From positions 620,001-684,000 of the forward strand of contig NZ_JAILWM010000001.1 of assembly GCF_025698945.1 (NCBI RefSeq): a DNA stretch of 64,000 nucleotides, given 5' to 3'. Origin of the DNA: Nitrosopumilus sp. Lineage in GTDB: Archaea > Thermoproteota > Nitrososphaeria > Nitrososphaerales > Nitrosopumilaceae. A program made the translations under genes and the position numbers. This document shows positions 18,630 to 39,399 of this stretch, piece by piece; the first letter of the stretch is position 1; each line of letters begins with the position of its first letter. The notes beneath the pieces are model-generated. The model did not search any database and was not told the DNA's origin. It saw nothing but the letters and a program-made list of their open reading frames with translations.

Positions 18630-19502
18630 TTGGTTTCTGGAACTCAACTAATGGAAAAAGTGTTATTCCGATTTGCTAAACAATGGATTGCTGGAAGTAC
18701 ACTCGAAGATGCTTTAAAATCGGCCAAGATTGCTTATGATAATGGACGACACGCAATAGTCAACAAACTAGGAGAATATCATACAGAACAAAAACCAATT
18801 GATGAAGCAATTACAGAGTATAATGAAATCATCAATTCATTTAGAAGATGGAAGATCCGAGGAGCCATTTCCATAAAACCGACACAGCTTGGACAGTCTA
18901 TTTCTCACAAAGAATGTTTGAAAAACTTTGAAGACATAATCAAGACTGCAACAAAATCGCATGTTTTTGTATGGATTGATATGGAGTCCTCAGAACATAC
19001 GGATGAAACGCTTGTTATGTATTATGATTTGTTCTCAAGATATGAGAGAATTGGGATTGCTATGCAAGCCAACCTTAAACGAACATTAAATGACGTTAAA
19101 GATTTGATTAAGCACTGTGCAAAAATCCGTCTAGTAAAGGGGGCATACAAAGAAGATGAGGAGATTGCGTTTACAACAAAGCAAGATGTAGATTCTAACT
19201 ATGAAAAAATTATGAGACTGTTGTTTGAAACAGGAAATGAGTTTGGAATTGCCACACATGACGCTACTCTAATCAATCTAGCAGTAAAACTAGCACAAGA
19301 AAATGATGTCAAGTTTGAATTTCAGTTTCTAAAAGGAGTACGAGATGAATTAAAACTAAAACTAGTAAAACAAGGATTTGTAGTATCTGACTACATCCCT
19401 TATGGTACAAATTGGCTTCCTTACTCCATTAGGAGGCTAAAGGAGAGAAAGCGGAATATTTTGCTTCTTGGAAACTCCTTTATTCAGTCACACAAGGTTT
19501 GA
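18630..19502 (+). CDS. proline dehydrogenase
   Basis: A 290-residue FAD-dependent PRODH that oxidises proline to pyrroline-5-carboxylate, feeding electrons to quinone. The TIM-barrel landmarks are present: 'AISIKPTQLG', 'FVWIDMESSEHTDETL', 'GIAMQANLKRT', 'IRLVKGAYKE', 'FGIATHDATLI' and 'FEFQFLKGVRDELK'. They end in the substrate-loop 'YIPYGTNWLPYSIRRLKER'. The size fits the monofunctional enzyme. The start is TTG 18630, or ATG 18651. It ends in a 19-base antisense overlap with the P5C dehydrogenase gene, the next pathway step. Confidence 0.93.
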   Translation: MVSGTQLMEKVLFRFAKQWIAGSTLEDALKSAKIAYDNGRHAIVNKLGEYHTEQKPIDEAITEYNEIINSFRRWKIRGAISIKPTQLGQSISHKECLKNFEDIIKTATKSHVFVWIDMESSEHTDETLVMYYDLFSRYERIGIAMQANLKRTLNDVKDLIKHCAKIRLVKGAYKEDEEIAFTTKQDVDSNYEKIMRLLFETGNEFGIATHDATLINLAVKLAQENDVKFEFQFLKGVRDELKLKLVKQGFVVSDYIPYGTNWLPYSIRRLKERKRNILLLGNSFIQSHKV

Positions 19503-21055
19503 GTTTGCGCCCTCAAAAACTGCTGCAAATAATTTTCCCCTCCGGCTCCTTTTCCAGTTGTTCCTGATGCCTTCCATCCAACAAAGGGCTGAGCTTGAAC
19601 TAGAGCTGCAGTAGTTGCACTGGATGCACGATTAGCATATACTGTTCCTGCCTGAATCTTTTTGAAAAATTCATCAATTTGTTGTTTGTCTTCAGAAAAT
19701 ATTCCTGCTGTTAATCCATACTCTGTATTATTTGCAAGATCTATCGCATCATCAAAGTCATCATATGTGTCTATGCACAGAAATGGCAAAAACAATTCCT
19801 CGGTAATTAATTTGTGGTTTTTTGGAAGATTAGTTACAATAGTTGGTTCAACAAAAAATCCCGAGTCATAATCAGAATTTTTTAGAATATTTCCGCCAAA
19901 AATTATCTTGCCATCTTTTTTTGCCATCTCGACAGATCTTTCAAATTTGTCTACTGCTTCTTTGTTTATTACAGGACCCAAAAATGAATCTTGCAACCAA
20001 GGCTTTCCAATTTTTAGTGATTTTGTTTTTTCTAAAATCTTTTCAGTAAATTCATTTAGAATTTCTTTTTGAACATATACTCTAGAACAGGCACTACATT
20101 TTTGGCCTCCATATCCAAACGCTGCCCTCATTACCCCTTCTGCTGCTTTTTCTAGATCTGCATTTTTAGTTACAATTACTGGGTTTTTACCTCCCATTTC
20201 TGCAATGAATGGTTTTGGATTTTTTTCTGTAAATTTTTTTGCTCCTGCTACTCCAACATCACGTGATCCTGTAAAAGCAATTCCTTCGATGTTGGGATTT
20301 TCAACAAGTGATTTTCCAACAACTGAACCGCTTCCGGTTACAAAATTTATTGTGCCTGCAGGAACATGCTCAAACAAATTCTCTACAAAAAAGTAAGATG
20401 AAAGGGGTGTTGCACTAGCAGGCTTTAGCACTGCAGTATTACCAGTAATTAATGCACCAGTGGTCATCCCTATTGCTATTGCAGATGGAAAATTAAAGGG
20501 AGCAATTATTCCCCATACCCCATATGGTTTTAGCACTGTCATAGTTTTTTCTCTAGGATTAGGATGAGGTGTTTTTTTACAGAATCCTTCGTTTTTTTCT
20601 AGTTGGTATGAATAAAAGCGCAAAAAGTCTATTGCTTCATCAACATCATTCATTGCCTCTATCCTATTTTTTCCGTTCTCAAAAGTCATGGATGCTGCAA
20701 GATAGAATTTTTGTTTAGACATGGCATCTGCACAATTACAAAATATCTTTACTCTGTCCTGGTATGGAATGACACTCCACTTGTAAAATGCTGCTTTTGC
20801 ACTATTTGCAGCATCAAGTACATTTTCTTCAGTACAGTTTGGGAATTCTGCAAGAACTAGATTTGTGTCTGCAGGAGATCTTACTTTAAAACAATCATCT
20901 GAAAATATCTTTTTTCCATTAATTATCATTGGGTATTTTTTTCCAAAGTTGGACTTTACCTGTTTTATTGCTTTTTCAAACAAGTCATGGAATTTATCAA
21001 CTGTATTTTGTGATACTGCATTTCCCCAAGTGAATTCATTTTCAAATTCAACCAT
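19484..21055 (-). CDS. L-glutamate gamma-semialdehyde (1-pyrroline-5-carboxylate) dehydrogenase
   Basis: A 523-residue aldehyde dehydrogenase with catalytic Cys320 (GGQKCSACSR) and general base Glu286 (AEMGGKNP). The NAD-binding run is 'FNFPSAIAIG' to 'FTGSRDVGV'. The GGQKCSA context is that of the P5C dehydrogenase (PutA/RocA) branch, oxidising glutamate semialdehyde to glutamate. I chose ATG 21055, since the longer frame to 21088 intrudes into the upstream gene. It overlaps the ureohydrolase end by 8 bases, implying coupled translation. Adjacency with proline dehydrogenase supports a proline-to-glutamate route. Confidence 0.94.
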   Translation of the reverse strand: MVEFENEFTWGNAVSQNTVDKFHDLFEKAIKQVKSNFGKKYPMIINGKKIFSDDCFKVRSPADTNLVLAEFPNCTEENVLDAANSAKAAFYKWSVIPYQDRVKIFCNCADAMSKQKFYLAASMTFENGKNRIEAMNDVDEAIDFLRFYSYQLEKNEGFCKKTPHPNPREKTMTVLKPYGVWGIIAPFNFPSAIAIGMTTGALITGNTAVLKPASATPLSSYFFVENLFEHVPAGTINFVTGSGSVVGKSLVENPNIEGIAFTGSRDVGVAGAKKFTEKNPKPFIAEMGGKNPVIVTKNADLEKAAEGVMRAAFGYGGQKCSACSRVYVQKEILNEFTEKILEKTKSLKIGKPWLQDSFLGPVINKEAVDKFERSVEMAKKDGKIIFGGNILKNSDYDSGFFVEPTIVTNLPKNHKLITEELFLPFLCIDTYDDFDDAIDLANNTEYGLTAGIFSEDKQQIDEFFKKIQAGTVYANRASSATTAALVQAQPFVGWKASGTTGKGAGGENYLQQFLRAQTQTLCD

Positions 21056-35173: not shown

Positions 35174-35848
35174 GTGGATTTTTTACATTCTGTTATGTAT
35201 AGCGGAGAGCTTGAAGTTCAAGCAAAAAGAAAGGCTATAGCAGTTTTACAAGACGAAATAAACAGAATCCTAAATGCTGCCAGAGAACTAGCAACACTTC
35301 CAGATCTAATGATGAAGAAAGACAAAACTGGAATCAAAAACACTCTTGAACAAATTTCTACAATAGAAGAAGAGGTAGAAAATCTAAGAAGAAAGATCAC
35401 AAGAGAAGTTGCAGATGTTGGAGGATTAATCATGAATCGAGAAAATCTTCTAAATACAGCATATACAATGGATGAAATAGCAGGTTACATCACAGGAATT
35501 TCATTCAAGCTTTCAAATGTAAAACCAACTACATTAAAGAGTGCAAAACTTGACAAAGATCTTACCAAGTTAATCGAACTTGTTGTAGATGAAGTATACA
35601 AATTGAATGAAATCATTCGAAGTCTTAATACAAACACTGCTAATGCAATTGAATTGGCTCAAGAAACTCAAACCATCGAAAGAGAAATTGACATAAAATA
35701 CAGACAAGCAACAATAAAACTTCTAAACGAAGTATCAAATACAAAAGAGCTTATGTTAATGAAAGATGTAATTGAAGGAATTGAAGAGATGGCAGATAAA
35801 TGCCAACGAGTATCAGATTCCTTTATTTTACTTGCGTTGAGTCTTTAA
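35174..35848 (+). CDS. PhoU/DUF47-like helical protein
   Basis: A 224-residue all-helical protein with a GTG start. Heptad-rich helices run 'ERKAIAVLQDEINRILNAAREL', 'IEEEVENLRRKITREVADVGG' and 'DVIEGIEEMADKCQRVSDSFIL'. The last resembles the conserved E..ADx..D metal-binding motif of PhoU-like DUF47 proteins, which partner phosphate transporters. The partner transporter is not next to it here. A role in phosphate-transport control is the best guess. Confidence 0.8.
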   Translation: MDFLHSVMYSGELEVQAKRKAIAVLQDEINRILNAARELATLPDLMMKKDKTGIKNTLEQISTIEEEVENLRRKITREVADVGGLIMNRENLLNTAYTMDEIAGYITGISFKLSNVKPTTLKSAKLDKDLTKLIELVVDEVYKLNEIIRSLNTNTANAIELAQETQTIEREIDIKYRQATIKLLNEVSNTKELMLMKDVIEGIEEMADKCQRVSDSFILLALSL

Positions 35849-35924
35849 AAACACCATTTCACATTTTACTTTATTTTTATGTTGTACATTAGAATTCATA
35901 TACACTAAACATTACAAATTAACT

Positions 35925-36461
35925 ATGAAAAGCGAATTAATTGAAAACAGAATAATTGTTTGGAACATCGAGGATTCTAGAAAACTTTTCAGCCAAGGGT
36001 ATTATGGAAAACCGATTGGAATACCAAAACCAATACCAGAAGAAATTGATGCTCCTCTAATTTTAGATCTAATTGAAGGGTTGTATCTTCTTGAAAATAA
36101 AAAAATTACAATAGATACAAAAAAACAAAAGTTAACAGCAGAACAACTAATTGAAATTTGTAAAAAAGAGTATCATGATTTTGATAAAAAATATTTAGTG
36201 TATAAAAATTTCAGAGACAAAGGATACATCATAAACCCAGGAATAAAGTTTGGATGTGACTTTGCAGTGTATGAAAAAGGGCCAGGAATTGATCATGCCC
36301 CATATCTGATTCAAGTATACAACAGAACAGAATCTATTTCATCTACAGGAATAGTTCTTGCAGGAAGACTTGCAACTACAGTTAGAAAACAATTCATCTT
36401 AGCAATTCCAAAAGGAAAAGACAAGGTCGATTTTCTTGCTTTAGATTGGTGGAAGGCTTAG
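35925..36461 (+). CDS. endA: tRNA-splicing (intron) endonuclease
   Basis: A 178-residue archaeal EndA, a homodimer-type splicing nuclease that cuts bulge-helix-bulge junctions in pre-tRNA and rRNA precursors. The triad is Tyr116 (FAVYEKGPG), His124 (GIDHAPYL) and Lys155 (TTVRKQFILAI). Its likely substrates include the rRNA stems mapped at 11208-12882. It overlaps the next convergent gene by 4 bases. Confidence 0.95.
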   Translation: MKSELIENRIIVWNIEDSRKLFSQGYYGKPIGIPKPIPEEIDAPLILDLIEGLYLLENKKITIDTKKQKLTAEQLIEICKKEYHDFDKKYLVYKNFRDKGYIINPGIKFGCDFAVYEKGPGIDHAPYLIQVYNRTESISSTGIVLAGRLATTVRKQFILAIPKGKDKVDFLALDWWKA

Positions 36462-36837: not shown

Positions 36838-37152
36838 TTATCCCTTCTGAATAATTTGAATTACGTCGATATTAGAGTTCTTAACATCAAGACATCCTCT
36901 ATTTGTTATCATTCTAGGGGTTTGAGCAAAATATCTACTATAGTAATCACCTTTTTCAACTTCATCAGTTCCAATATCTTTTGATACAGAATCTATGCCG
37001 ATCTCCTTTAGCATACTTGAAAACTTCTCAGGCCATGTTTGATATACAAAAGTGTCAGGTTCTGAATCATGCATATAAAATCTTGAAGGGTACCCACAAA
37101 TAAAGATATCAAGAAAAAATGAGTCACTAAGATCAATCGAATTAAATATCAC
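36838..37152 (-). CDS. hypothetical protein, 104 aa
   Basis: Contains 'YPSRFYMHDSEPDTFVYQTW' and 'DYYSRYFAQTPRMITNRGCLDV', with a single Cys besides one near residue 19. It is soluble and has no recognisable family. It starts at ATG 37152 and is divergent from the SDR gene at 37174 with 21 bases between. First gene of the pair with 36458. Confidence 0.65.
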   Translation of the reverse strand: MIFNSIDLSDSFFLDIFICGYPSRFYMHDSEPDTFVYQTWPEKFSSMLKEIGIDSVSKDIGTDEVEKGDYYSRYFAQTPRMITNRGCLDVKNSNIDVIQIIQKG

Positions 37153-37173: not shown

Positions 37174-38943
37174 ATGCTAAAATTTCAAAATAAAATTGCT
37201 CTTGTAACAGGTAGTGGTACAGGTATAGGTAAAGCCATTGCTACAAAATTTATTGAAAACGGAGCAAGTGTAATCATTCTTGGAAGAAGAAAAGAACCAC
37301 TCCAAGAAGCAGCAAAAGAGTTAGAATCAAAAATCCCTCAAGGTAGCGTGGCATCTGTTAAAATTTTTGCCGGAGTTGACGTAGCCGATGAAACAGCAAT
37401 GAATGAGATGTTTAACACTTTAAAAAATGAAAATACTACCGTTGATTATATTATTAATAACGCAGGAGTATCAGGTCCTGTAACTTGTTTTGCAAATGCT
37501 CCATTAGAGGATTTTAAAAGCACTGTAGCAATACACCTTACTGGGACATTTTGGGGTTCTGTTCAAGCACTAAAAGTAATGAAAGAAGGAGGAAAAATAA
37601 TTACAATTTCAACTTTCTTTACTGAAGAAAGACCCCTAGAGCAAAGACCTTACAGATTTAGAAGTCCATATACTGCATCTCAAGGTGCAAAAAACAGATT
37701 AGCTGAAGCAATGTCATGGGAGCTAACCGATAAAGGCATCATATCAATTGCAACAAATCCAGGCCCGGTTCATTCAGATAGAATTTACAAAACAGTTTAT
37801 CCAAAAGCAGCAGCAGAGTTTATGAGAGTTAGTGGTTTTGAAGATCTTTCACCAGTAGAAGTAGATAAAGCCAATAGAGAATTACTAGAATTATTAGGCG
37901 AAGATGATAATACAATCAAAGAAGGGATTGCAAAAGCAGCAGCAAAACTTGCAAATGGTAAAGACGTATCCAAATTAACTGAGACATTTACAAATCTACT
38001 AAACAAAATCCAAACAATTGCAGAAAAAGTGCAAAACAACACATCACATATGATTGCAAACAGAGAATTTCTTTCACAAGGTCAAGTTGCAGAATCAGTT
38101 TTGAATTTGTGTGATGATGAGATTGCAAAGATACTAAACGGCAAAGTGATTCCTGGAGACAGGGTCTTCTATCCAGTAAAACCACACATTGGAACCACAA
38201 CTCCGGGTGTTCATCAACCAGACTTTGCGGGAAAAGCAATCGTGTTAACAATAGATGCAACAGATAAGGCAGATGCAGACAGAGTAGAATTTTTGGCCCA
38301 ACATATTGTGGAGAATGGTGGAAAAGTAGCTTGTTTTATTTCAGAGTCAACCCCAAAAGAACTCCAAGAGCAGATTAGCAGTAAATTTCATTCACATGTA
38401 GTAGATATTAGAAATCCAGGAGATGTAGAAAGATGGCTAAATACTGCCAAAACCAACATTGGAGAAATATTAGCAGTAATTCATGTCACTGGAAAACTAC
38501 CAGAAATATCAAAATTAACTGAACAAACAAGGGCAAAATGGGAAGAACTAACAGCAAAATTCATTTTGACTCCTGCAACAGTCGCACAAAGAGCACTTGA
38601 ACACTTTGTTCCAGGAGGAGCAAAAGATCCAAGATTATACAAAGATGCCAAAGGTGCAATCATGATAATTGGTCCGGATTTACCAGTAGACCGTAAAGTT
38701 ACAGGTACACAAAGAGCTCAAGTTGAAGTTTTCAGAGGAGCGCTAAGACCATTTACAACAACTGTAAATCAAGAATTAAGTGATGTTCTAAATTCTAAAA
38801 TTAGATTATTTACAATATTCCCAGGAACTGTTACAGGAACAGAACCTAGCAATCAACGAATTGCAGATGCACTAAATTTCCTCGTATCAGATAGTGCTGC
38901 TTCATCAGCAGAAGTAACTTTCTGTGTTGATGAATCAAGATAG
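37174..38943 (+). CDS. tandem short-chain dehydrogenase/reductase protein with altered catalytic site
   Basis: A 589-residue protein of two SDR-like halves. The first has the NAD(P) motif TGSGTGIG (12-19), NNAG (95-98) and catalytic Ser146 (IITISTFF). In the YxxxK motif it reads Tyr166-T-A-S-Gln170: the lysine codon position is CAA (37681-37683), and Lys173 lies one turn on. The second half (from about 340) keeps a Rossmann strand pattern but has no glycine motif. Two SDRs in this order match the N-terminal half of Chloroflexus malonyl-CoA reductase (my recollection). A role in malonate-semialdehyde or related chemistry is possible but unproven. Confidence 0.8.
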   Translation: MLKFQNKIALVTGSGTGIGKAIATKFIENGASVIILGRRKEPLQEAAKELESKIPQGSVASVKIFAGVDVADETAMNEMFNTLKNENTTVDYIINNAGVSGPVTCFANAPLEDFKSTVAIHLTGTFWGSVQALKVMKEGGKIITISTFFTEERPLEQRPYRFRSPYTASQGAKNRLAEAMSWELTDKGIISIATNPGPVHSDRIYKTVYPKAAAEFMRVSGFEDLSPVEVDKANRELLELLGEDDNTIKEGIAKAAAKLANGKDVSKLTETFTNLLNKIQTIAEKVQNNTSHMIANREFLSQGQVAESVLNLCDDEIAKILNGKVIPGDRVFYPVKPHIGTTTPGVHQPDFAGKAIVLTIDATDKADADRVEFLAQHIVENGGKVACFISESTPKELQEQISSKFHSHVVDIRNPGDVERWLNTAKTNIGEILAVIHVTGKLPEISKLTEQTRAKWEELTAKFILTPATVAQRALEHFVPGGAKDPRLYKDAKGAIMIIGPDLPVDRKVTGTQRAQVEVFRGALRPFTTTVNQELSDVLNSKIRLFTIFPGTVTGTEPSNQRIADALNFLVSDSAASSAEVTFCVDESR

Positions 38944-38946
38944 ATA

Positions 38947-39399
38947 ATGAAAAAAATTTCTGAATTAAAAGTTGGAGATAGTTTTTTTTCAACATGTAGT
39001 ATTTCAGACAAAGAGTTAGAAGAGTATCTCAACTTTTCAAGAGTGAAAAATGCATTTTTGGAACAAAAACAAAAAGGAGAACAACAGATAGTTTCAGGTA
39101 GAGCAATTTTATCAAGAATGGAAGGAGAATTTACAAGACTAAGTCAAATTTATGGAAATCATATTATTTTTCTAGGAACCGATGGAGATCCTGAATGGAA
39201 GAATAGAAACACTAGATTTCTAAAACCATTTTATACTGATCAAGTCTTGAAATTAAAATTTACAATTTCTCAAAAAGAAGACATAGATGATGAGTTTGGA
39301 AAAATAGCAGTAGATTTTGAGGGAACAACTCAAGAGAACGAAACAGTAGTACTTTCAAAGAGAAACATTTACAGAATCAAAAAAGAACCACCAAGATAA
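38947..39399 (+). CDS. hotdog-fold (MaoC-like) protein
   Basis: A 150-residue protein with the N-terminal 'LKVGDSFFSTCSISDKELEEY' start typical of MaoC/hydratase proteins, then 'QIVSGRAILSRMEGEFTRL' and a beta strand 'FYTDQVLKLKFTIS'. The expected Asp-x4-His hydratase dyad is not clear, so it may act as a thioesterase-like or non-catalytic partner. It begins 3 bases after the tandem SDR stop and is clearly coupled to it. Confidence 0.75.
   Translation: MKKISELKVGDSFFSTCSISDKELEEYLNFSRVKNAFLEQKQKGEQQIVSGRAILSRMEGEFTRLSQIYGNHIIFLGTDGDPEWKNRNTRFLKPFYTDQVLKLKFTISQKEDIDDEFGKIAVDFEGTTQENETVVLSKRNIYRIKKEPPR

Follow-up and report, generated by a model that had tools for sequence, protein, structure and literature searches.

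Which protein reduces malonyl-CoA in the CO2-fixation cycle of the ammonia-oxidizing archaea (AOA), and could a tandem short-chain dehydrogenase (SDR) of Nitrosopumilus sp. be that enzyme? AOA perform much of the dark-ocean carbon fixation, and their cycle has been called the most energy-efficient route of aerobic CO2 fixation. Malonyl-CoA reductase activity is present in extracts of N. maritimus, but a 2018 paper lists its gene, together with that for succinyl-CoA reductase, as unidentified (PMC6038301), and a 2020 paper does the same for the malonyl-CoA reductase gene of AOA (PMC6964070). A 2025 study named Asd and GabD as putative candidates, without saying in its text which step each would serve, and reported that in N. 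viennensis Asd rises under carbon limitation alongside proteins known from the cycle (PMC12542715); its Asd is read here as the candidate for malonyl-CoA reductase. In N. maritimus, reduction of malonate semialdehyde has been assigned to Nmar_1110, an iron-dependent alcohol dehydrogenase (Otte 2015, cited in PMC7845616 and PMC5797428). SDRs with about 30% identity to Caur_2614 have also been put forward as possible malonate-semialdehyde reductases (PMC5797428), so SDRs resembling malonyl-CoA reductase (MCR) had already been noticed, for the other step. Among the papers searched, none joined malonyl-CoA reductase, Nitrosopumilus and short-chain dehydrogenase.

Gene and domain organization

The gene lies in the window, i.e., the whole 64,000-nucleotide stretch of Nitrosopumilus sp. 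DNA that was analyzed. Its features are as follows.

37174..38943, + strand: whole gene, tandem-SDR protein of 589 aa plus stop, MCR-half-like (ORF, model, fold search)
37174..37788, + strand: catalytic SDR domain, residues 1-205 (PF00106 and alignment A1)
37612..37614, + strand: Thr147, at the catalytic Ser/Thr position (Ser731 / Thr165 in Roseiflexus MCR; invariant, alignment)
37651..37671, + strand: YRFRSPY, residues 160-166, the malonate-binding motif YxxRxxY of MCR (Y160, R163, Y166; invariant, motif per PMC10470521)
37681..37683, + strand: Gln170, replacing the catalytic Lys of YxxxK (invariant, 140/140)
37690..37692, + strand: Lys173, one helical turn past Gln170 (invariant, alignment)
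37756..37788, + strand: NPGPVHSDRIY, residues 195-205, with R203 aligned to R773 (Chloroflexus) / R785 (Roseiflexus) (alignment)
37789..38073, + strand: helical insert, residues 206-300, placed like the extra domain of the C-terminal half of MCR (AlphaFold2 model)
38221..38940, + strand: second, degenerate SDR domain, residues 350-589 (model and weak PF00106 match)

Domain 1 is a complete SDR, with a PF00106 match over residues 7-202 (E 1e-42) and, according to PF00106 and alignment A1, the landmarks TGSGTGIG (12-19), R38-R39, D69, NNAG (95-98) and H121. Among the classical SDR features TGxxxGxG and NNAG are present, whereas YxxxK is absent, its Lys being Gln. The AlphaFold2 model, built from 30 orthologues (pLDDT 88.7, pTM 0.89; residues 150-157, directly before YxxRxxY, poorly modelled with pLDDT <50), places the helices of the insert at 202-220, 227-240, 245-259 and 265-292, with residues 354-589 forming a second Rossmann domain. 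The weak PF00106 match of domain 2 was detected separately in several orthologues. These matches bear out an earlier note on this DNA, which had described two SDR halves in the order complete then degenerate; the PGPIESDRI-type segment that it pointed out was likewise recovered, NPGPVHSDRIY aligning with PGPIESDRI and PGPVEGDRL of MCR. An NCBIfam search of the 589-aa protein gave no model at its cut-off. The protein belongs to PF00106 and lacks the characters of both PF02774, the aspartate-semialdehyde dehydrogenase (ASD) fold family of the Sulfolobales-type enzyme, and PF00465, the family of Nmar_1110.

Conservation of the active site

Orthologues were gathered from 400 genomes of the class Nitrososphaeria and from genome contigs. 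Thr147, Tyr166, Gln170, Gly171 and Lys173 are invariant in 140 orthologues, down to about 44% identity, as is the segment PVHSDRIY (198-205); in the 30-row alignment A1 (overall identity down to 44%) nearly all of EQRPYRFR-PYT-QG-KNR is invariant, including Tyr160 and Arg163. The replacement of the YxxxK Lys by Gln170, recorded in the earlier note, thus holds throughout the family (Gln in 140/140), and orthologues with Lys at this position, which it had proposed to look for, were sought among the 140 and none was found. Because Gln170, Tyr166 and Lys173 are each present in 140/140, a sequencing or strain error at Gln170 is excluded; because Gln170 is invariant while overall identity drops to 44%, the change from Lys to Gln is old and has been kept. 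Other AOA SDRs have Lys at the same position in 28 of 29 cases. Positions 170 and 173 of the helix read Gln then Lys here, versus Lys then Gln in MCR SDR3. Y166-x6-K173 has the spacing of the FabI-type Y-x6-K, but the ungapped alignment sets Gln170, not Lys173, on the classical Lys column.

Resemblance to malonyl-CoA reductase

A Foldseek search against the PDB yielded MCR entries at all of ranks 1-25 (E 4e-27 to 4e-20, TMq 0.68-0.75), followed by MFE-2 (E 4e-19, TMq 0.56) and then single SDRs (about 1e-14). An unrelated single-SDR family without a tandem partner is ruled out by this fold result, whereas single-domain sequence scores do not discriminate. The top PDB matches by sequence were the bifunctional MCRs 8hjw and 8hi4, partly because two SDR domains of each match; domain 1 is by sequence no nearer to MCR SDRs than to ordinary SDRs (MCR SDR3, 86.6 bits; 4iuy, 93.6 bits). 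Sequence similarity of the insert and second domain to the extra domain (ED) and SDR4 of MCR was sought and none was found, domain 2 being nearer to generic SDRs. A plasmid search for bacterial half-MCR homologues returned generic SDRs only, with no record covering 80% of the protein.

Structure, simulation and mutation show that YxxRxxY holds malonate or malonate semialdehyde in MCR; in the Roseiflexus enzyme SDR1 reduces malonate semialdehyde and SDR3, which requires the extra domain, reduces malonyl-CoA, both using YxxRxxY for the malonyl group (PMC10470521). YxxRxxYxxxK was found in 0/42 comparison SDRs (28 from AOA, one of 29 having been dropped, 10 plasmid SDRs among the closest, and 4 PDB domains, two of which are partial and end short of the motif). 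R203 is invariant and aligned to the CoA-binding Arg after PGPV of MCR (R773 / R785), while R218 and K285 are possible counterparts only of the MCR extra-domain residues Arg799/Lys807/Lys919, the insert having no sequence similarity. In the tree the AOA family groups with MCR SDR1 and SDR3 (support 98/95; 96/80 with more outgroups). This grouping is lost yet not rejected once the motif columns are removed (p-AU 0.59, the likelihood being slightly better if it is enforced), so the signal in the core domain is too weak, and the case for kinship with MCR is built on the fold and on the region of the active site. With bifunctional MCRs the protein shares YxxRxxY, the Arg after PGPV and the overall tandem fold. 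It is nevertheless described as MCR-half-like and not placed in the bifunctional family, because four SDR domains (about 1200 aa; here 589 aa and one tandem pair) and the catalytic Lys (Lys182 / Lys753; here Gln170, 140/140) are lacking.

Distribution among archaea

The SDR gene was found in 268/400 Nitrososphaeria genomes, and in 171 of the 220 near-complete ones; amoA was found in 249/400. Both genes occur in 235 genomes, neither in 118, the SDR gene only in 33 and amoA only in 14 (Fisher p ~1e-53, relatedness uncorrected). Most of the 14 amoA-only genomes are incomplete drafts; among those that were rechecked, two carry fragments of the SDR gene at contig ends. No match at E 1e-35 was found outside the ammonia-oxidizing families in a phylum-wide sample, and the gene is retained in genomes of 0.8 Mb. 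Co-occurrence of this kind with amoA would fit any core AOA gene.

Pathway candidates and proposed function

The Asd-family proteins of the genome are one Asd and one ArgC only. Asd scores 381 bits against TIGR00978 (cut-off 301) and matches the ASD of Methanocaldococcus (291 bits) better than the malonyl-CoA reductase of Sulfolobus (189 bits), and is therefore likely needed for amino-acid synthesis; judged by these scores, the Asd-family candidate is likely a true aspartate-semialdehyde dehydrogenase, with a double role possible. The genome also encodes an iron-dependent alcohol dehydrogenase of 315 aa, from the Nmar_1110 family of known malonate-semialdehyde reductase, and a separate glycerol-1-phosphate dehydrogenase. 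An aldehyde dehydrogenase (PF00171) at window positions 19502-20893 (- strand) is one of two in the genome, and the second, on contig 4, resembles succinate-semialdehyde dehydrogenase. The GabD candidate that the literature names for the AOA cycle may be one or the other.

Based on sequence, conservation, motif, predicted fold and distribution, we infer with moderate confidence that the SDR gene encodes a stand-alone, NADPH-dependent malonyl-CoA reductase, a variant of an MCR half with Gln at the position of the catalytic Lys. Succinyl-CoA is perhaps also a substrate of this candidate enzyme. NADPH would bind to domain 1 through TGxxxGIG and Arg38-Arg39, Tyr160, Arg163 and Tyr166 would grip the free carboxylate of malonyl-CoA, and Arg203 and lid residues would hold CoA; hydride would attack the thioester, malonate semialdehyde would be released, and 3-hydroxypropionate would then be made by the separate iron alcohol dehydrogenase. 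Roles for Gln170 and Lys173 are put forward tentatively: the lost Lys supports reduction of a carbonyl to an alcohol, and an enzyme ending its reaction at the aldehyde could do without it. The weak points of this reading are that the Lys essential in MCR (Lys753) is Gln, and that, for the insert and domain 2, the match to MCR lies in the fold and not in the sequence. A doubtful extension is that the half-MCR with Gln for Lys is locked into the thioester-to-aldehyde step for malonyl-CoA and succinyl-CoA alike, and would serve both reductive CoA-acylating steps of the AOA cycle.

An alternative reading is that succinyl-CoA, alone or along with malonyl-CoA, is what the enzyme converts to a semialdehyde. 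The chemistry would be the same, YxxRxxY again gripping a free carboxylate. In Sulfolobus a single promiscuous reductase handles both malonyl-CoA and succinyl-CoA, the AOA cycle already has a known promiscuous enzyme in Crt, and the succinyl-CoA reductase gene of AOA is also unproven (PMC6038301). We nevertheless consider this reading unlikely: YxxRxxY is documented for malonate and malonate semialdehyde only, and there is already a candidate in a GabD-type aldehyde dehydrogenase, which responds to carbon limitation (PMC12542715) and of which the genome encodes one.

Comparison with the two halves of MCR and related enzymes

For the preferred reading as a malonyl-CoA reductase, the half of MCR that the protein resembles matters. 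The Chloroflexus MCR probe sequence matches PDB chain 8hjw over all 1219 positions. Y160/R163/Y166 align to Y731/R734/Y737 of its SDR3, and R203 to R773. The spacing from Thr147 to Tyr160 is 13 residues, compared with 12 in SDR3 and 7 in SDR1, and about 145 aa separate PGPxxxDR from domain 2, compared with about 176 aa in the C-half and about 86 aa in the N-half. Profile scores (159.8 for the C-half, 149.2 for the N-half) show a slight preference for the C-half, and Thr147 is the sole feature fitting SDR1.

The C-half (Chloroflexus aurantiacus Caur_2614, 8a30; Roseiflexus, 8hi5; Porphyrobacter, 6k8s), arranged as SDR3-ED-SDR4, has in common with the AOA protein an SDR followed by a helical insert and a degenerate SDR, YxxRxxY, the Arg after PGPV and the spacing from Ser/Thr to the motif. 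The AOA protein differs in being archaeal and stand-alone (589 aa), in having Gln for the YxxxK Lys and Thr for Ser, and in its shorter insert; insert and second domain are unrecognizable by sequence. The N-half (8aew, 8hi6, 6k8v), arranged as SDR1-SDR2 and acting as malonate-semialdehyde reductase, shares the tandem SDR, YxxRxxY, the Thr and PGPIESDRI, but has the 7-residue spacing, a much shorter insert, and Lys. The C-half is slightly the better match, and assignment to the N-half the weaker of the two. The earlier note had likened the protein to the N-half: the resemblance to MCR stands (25/25 top folds MCR, YxxRxxY kept), and the choice of half is the less well supported part, spacing, insert and scores favoring the C-half. 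Fold and profile scores alike place the C-half slightly first.

As the equivalent of the N-half, the protein would be a malonate-semialdehyde reductase, the role that the earlier note had favored. YxxRxxY and Thr are as in MCR SDR1, and Nitrosocaldus is without the Nmar_1110 type, SDRs about 30% identical to Caur_2614 having been proposed for this step (PMC5797428). This role is improbable, however, since the step is already assigned to Nmar_1110, of whose family a member is in the genome, the loop and insert lengths fit the C-half, and alcohol formation is what most needs the missing Lys.

The Sulfolobales malonyl-CoA/succinyl-CoA reductase (4dpk, ASD family) shares the proposed reaction and pathway with the AOA protein, but its fold family is unrelated. 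The peroxisomal MFE-2, a tandem (3R)-hydroxyacyl-CoA dehydrogenase (2et6), shares the tandem SDR and His for Asn in the tetrad, but its fold match is clearly weaker. To our knowledge, both SDRs of MFE-2 are active, with the Lys kept and no YxxRxxY.

Gene neighborhood

The SDR gene is followed after 3 bases by a second gene.

38947..39399, + strand: 150-aa MaoC-type hot-dog protein (fold; hydratase motif absent)

In Nitrosopumilaceae the MaoC-like gene directly follows the SDR gene in 77/110 loci, and the two are probably co-transcribed; it is apparently lost or truncated in some loci of this family (L054, L059, L084, L085, L092) and does not adjoin the SDR gene in the other AOA families. SGRA and EGEFTRL are invariant in the MaoC-like protein, which has no Pfam or NCBIfam match and lacks the Asp/His motif of hydratases. 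The operon was rejected as a functional clue, the arrangement being confined to Nitrosopumilaceae and the catalytic motif missing. A MAG titled Nitrososphaeraceae (L095) carries both the SDR gene and the MaoC-like gene at identities on the level of Nitrosopumilaceae (80% / 75%) and is therefore probably mislabelled or chimeric.

A PhoU-like gene and the tRNA intron endonuclease gene endA lie upstream of the SDR gene (window 35174-36461, + strand). Both stay near it in Nitrosopumilaceae, and at certain loci from other AOA families as well (e.g., L130, L143), and this closeness in several families makes the locus look ancestral to AOA. A short divergent ORF (window 36838-37152, - strand), whose listed GTG start is 21 bases from the SDR start codon, is conserved in Nitrosopumilaceae and has no family match; its start codon is probably misplaced.

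The hot-dog fold of the adjoining gene, MFE-2 being the next fold match after MCR, and His121 for Asn as in MFE-2 would suit action on another CoA thioester or carbonyl, e.g., a 3-oxoacyl/3-hydroxyacyl-CoA step carried out with the MaoC-like protein in the manner of MFE-2. We give this little credence, as the MFE-2 fold match is clearly worse, MFE-2 keeps the Lys and is not known to have YxxRxxY, and the MaoC-like protein is without the hydratase motif and adjoins in Nitrosopumilaceae only. Least probable is a catalytically dead or a regulatory or structural pseudo-enzyme, which is suggested because the SDR Lys is lost (Lys753 to Ala inactivates MCR; PMC10470521) and domain 2 is degenerate, but the cofactor motif, Thr147, Tyr160, Arg163, Tyr166, Gln170, Lys173 and Arg203 are invariant across families at 44% identity, which is not a pattern of relaxed constraint.

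Implications

A candidate malonyl-CoA reductase with a conserved malonate-binding site would help to close a step of AOA CO2 fixation that has been tentatively Asd's at most, and would open that step to direct testing. If the assignment is true, bacteria and AOA would share the same SDR solution, while the Sulfolobales use an enzyme of the ASD family. It would also be mechanistically unusual for an SDR to work with Gln where Lys is expected.
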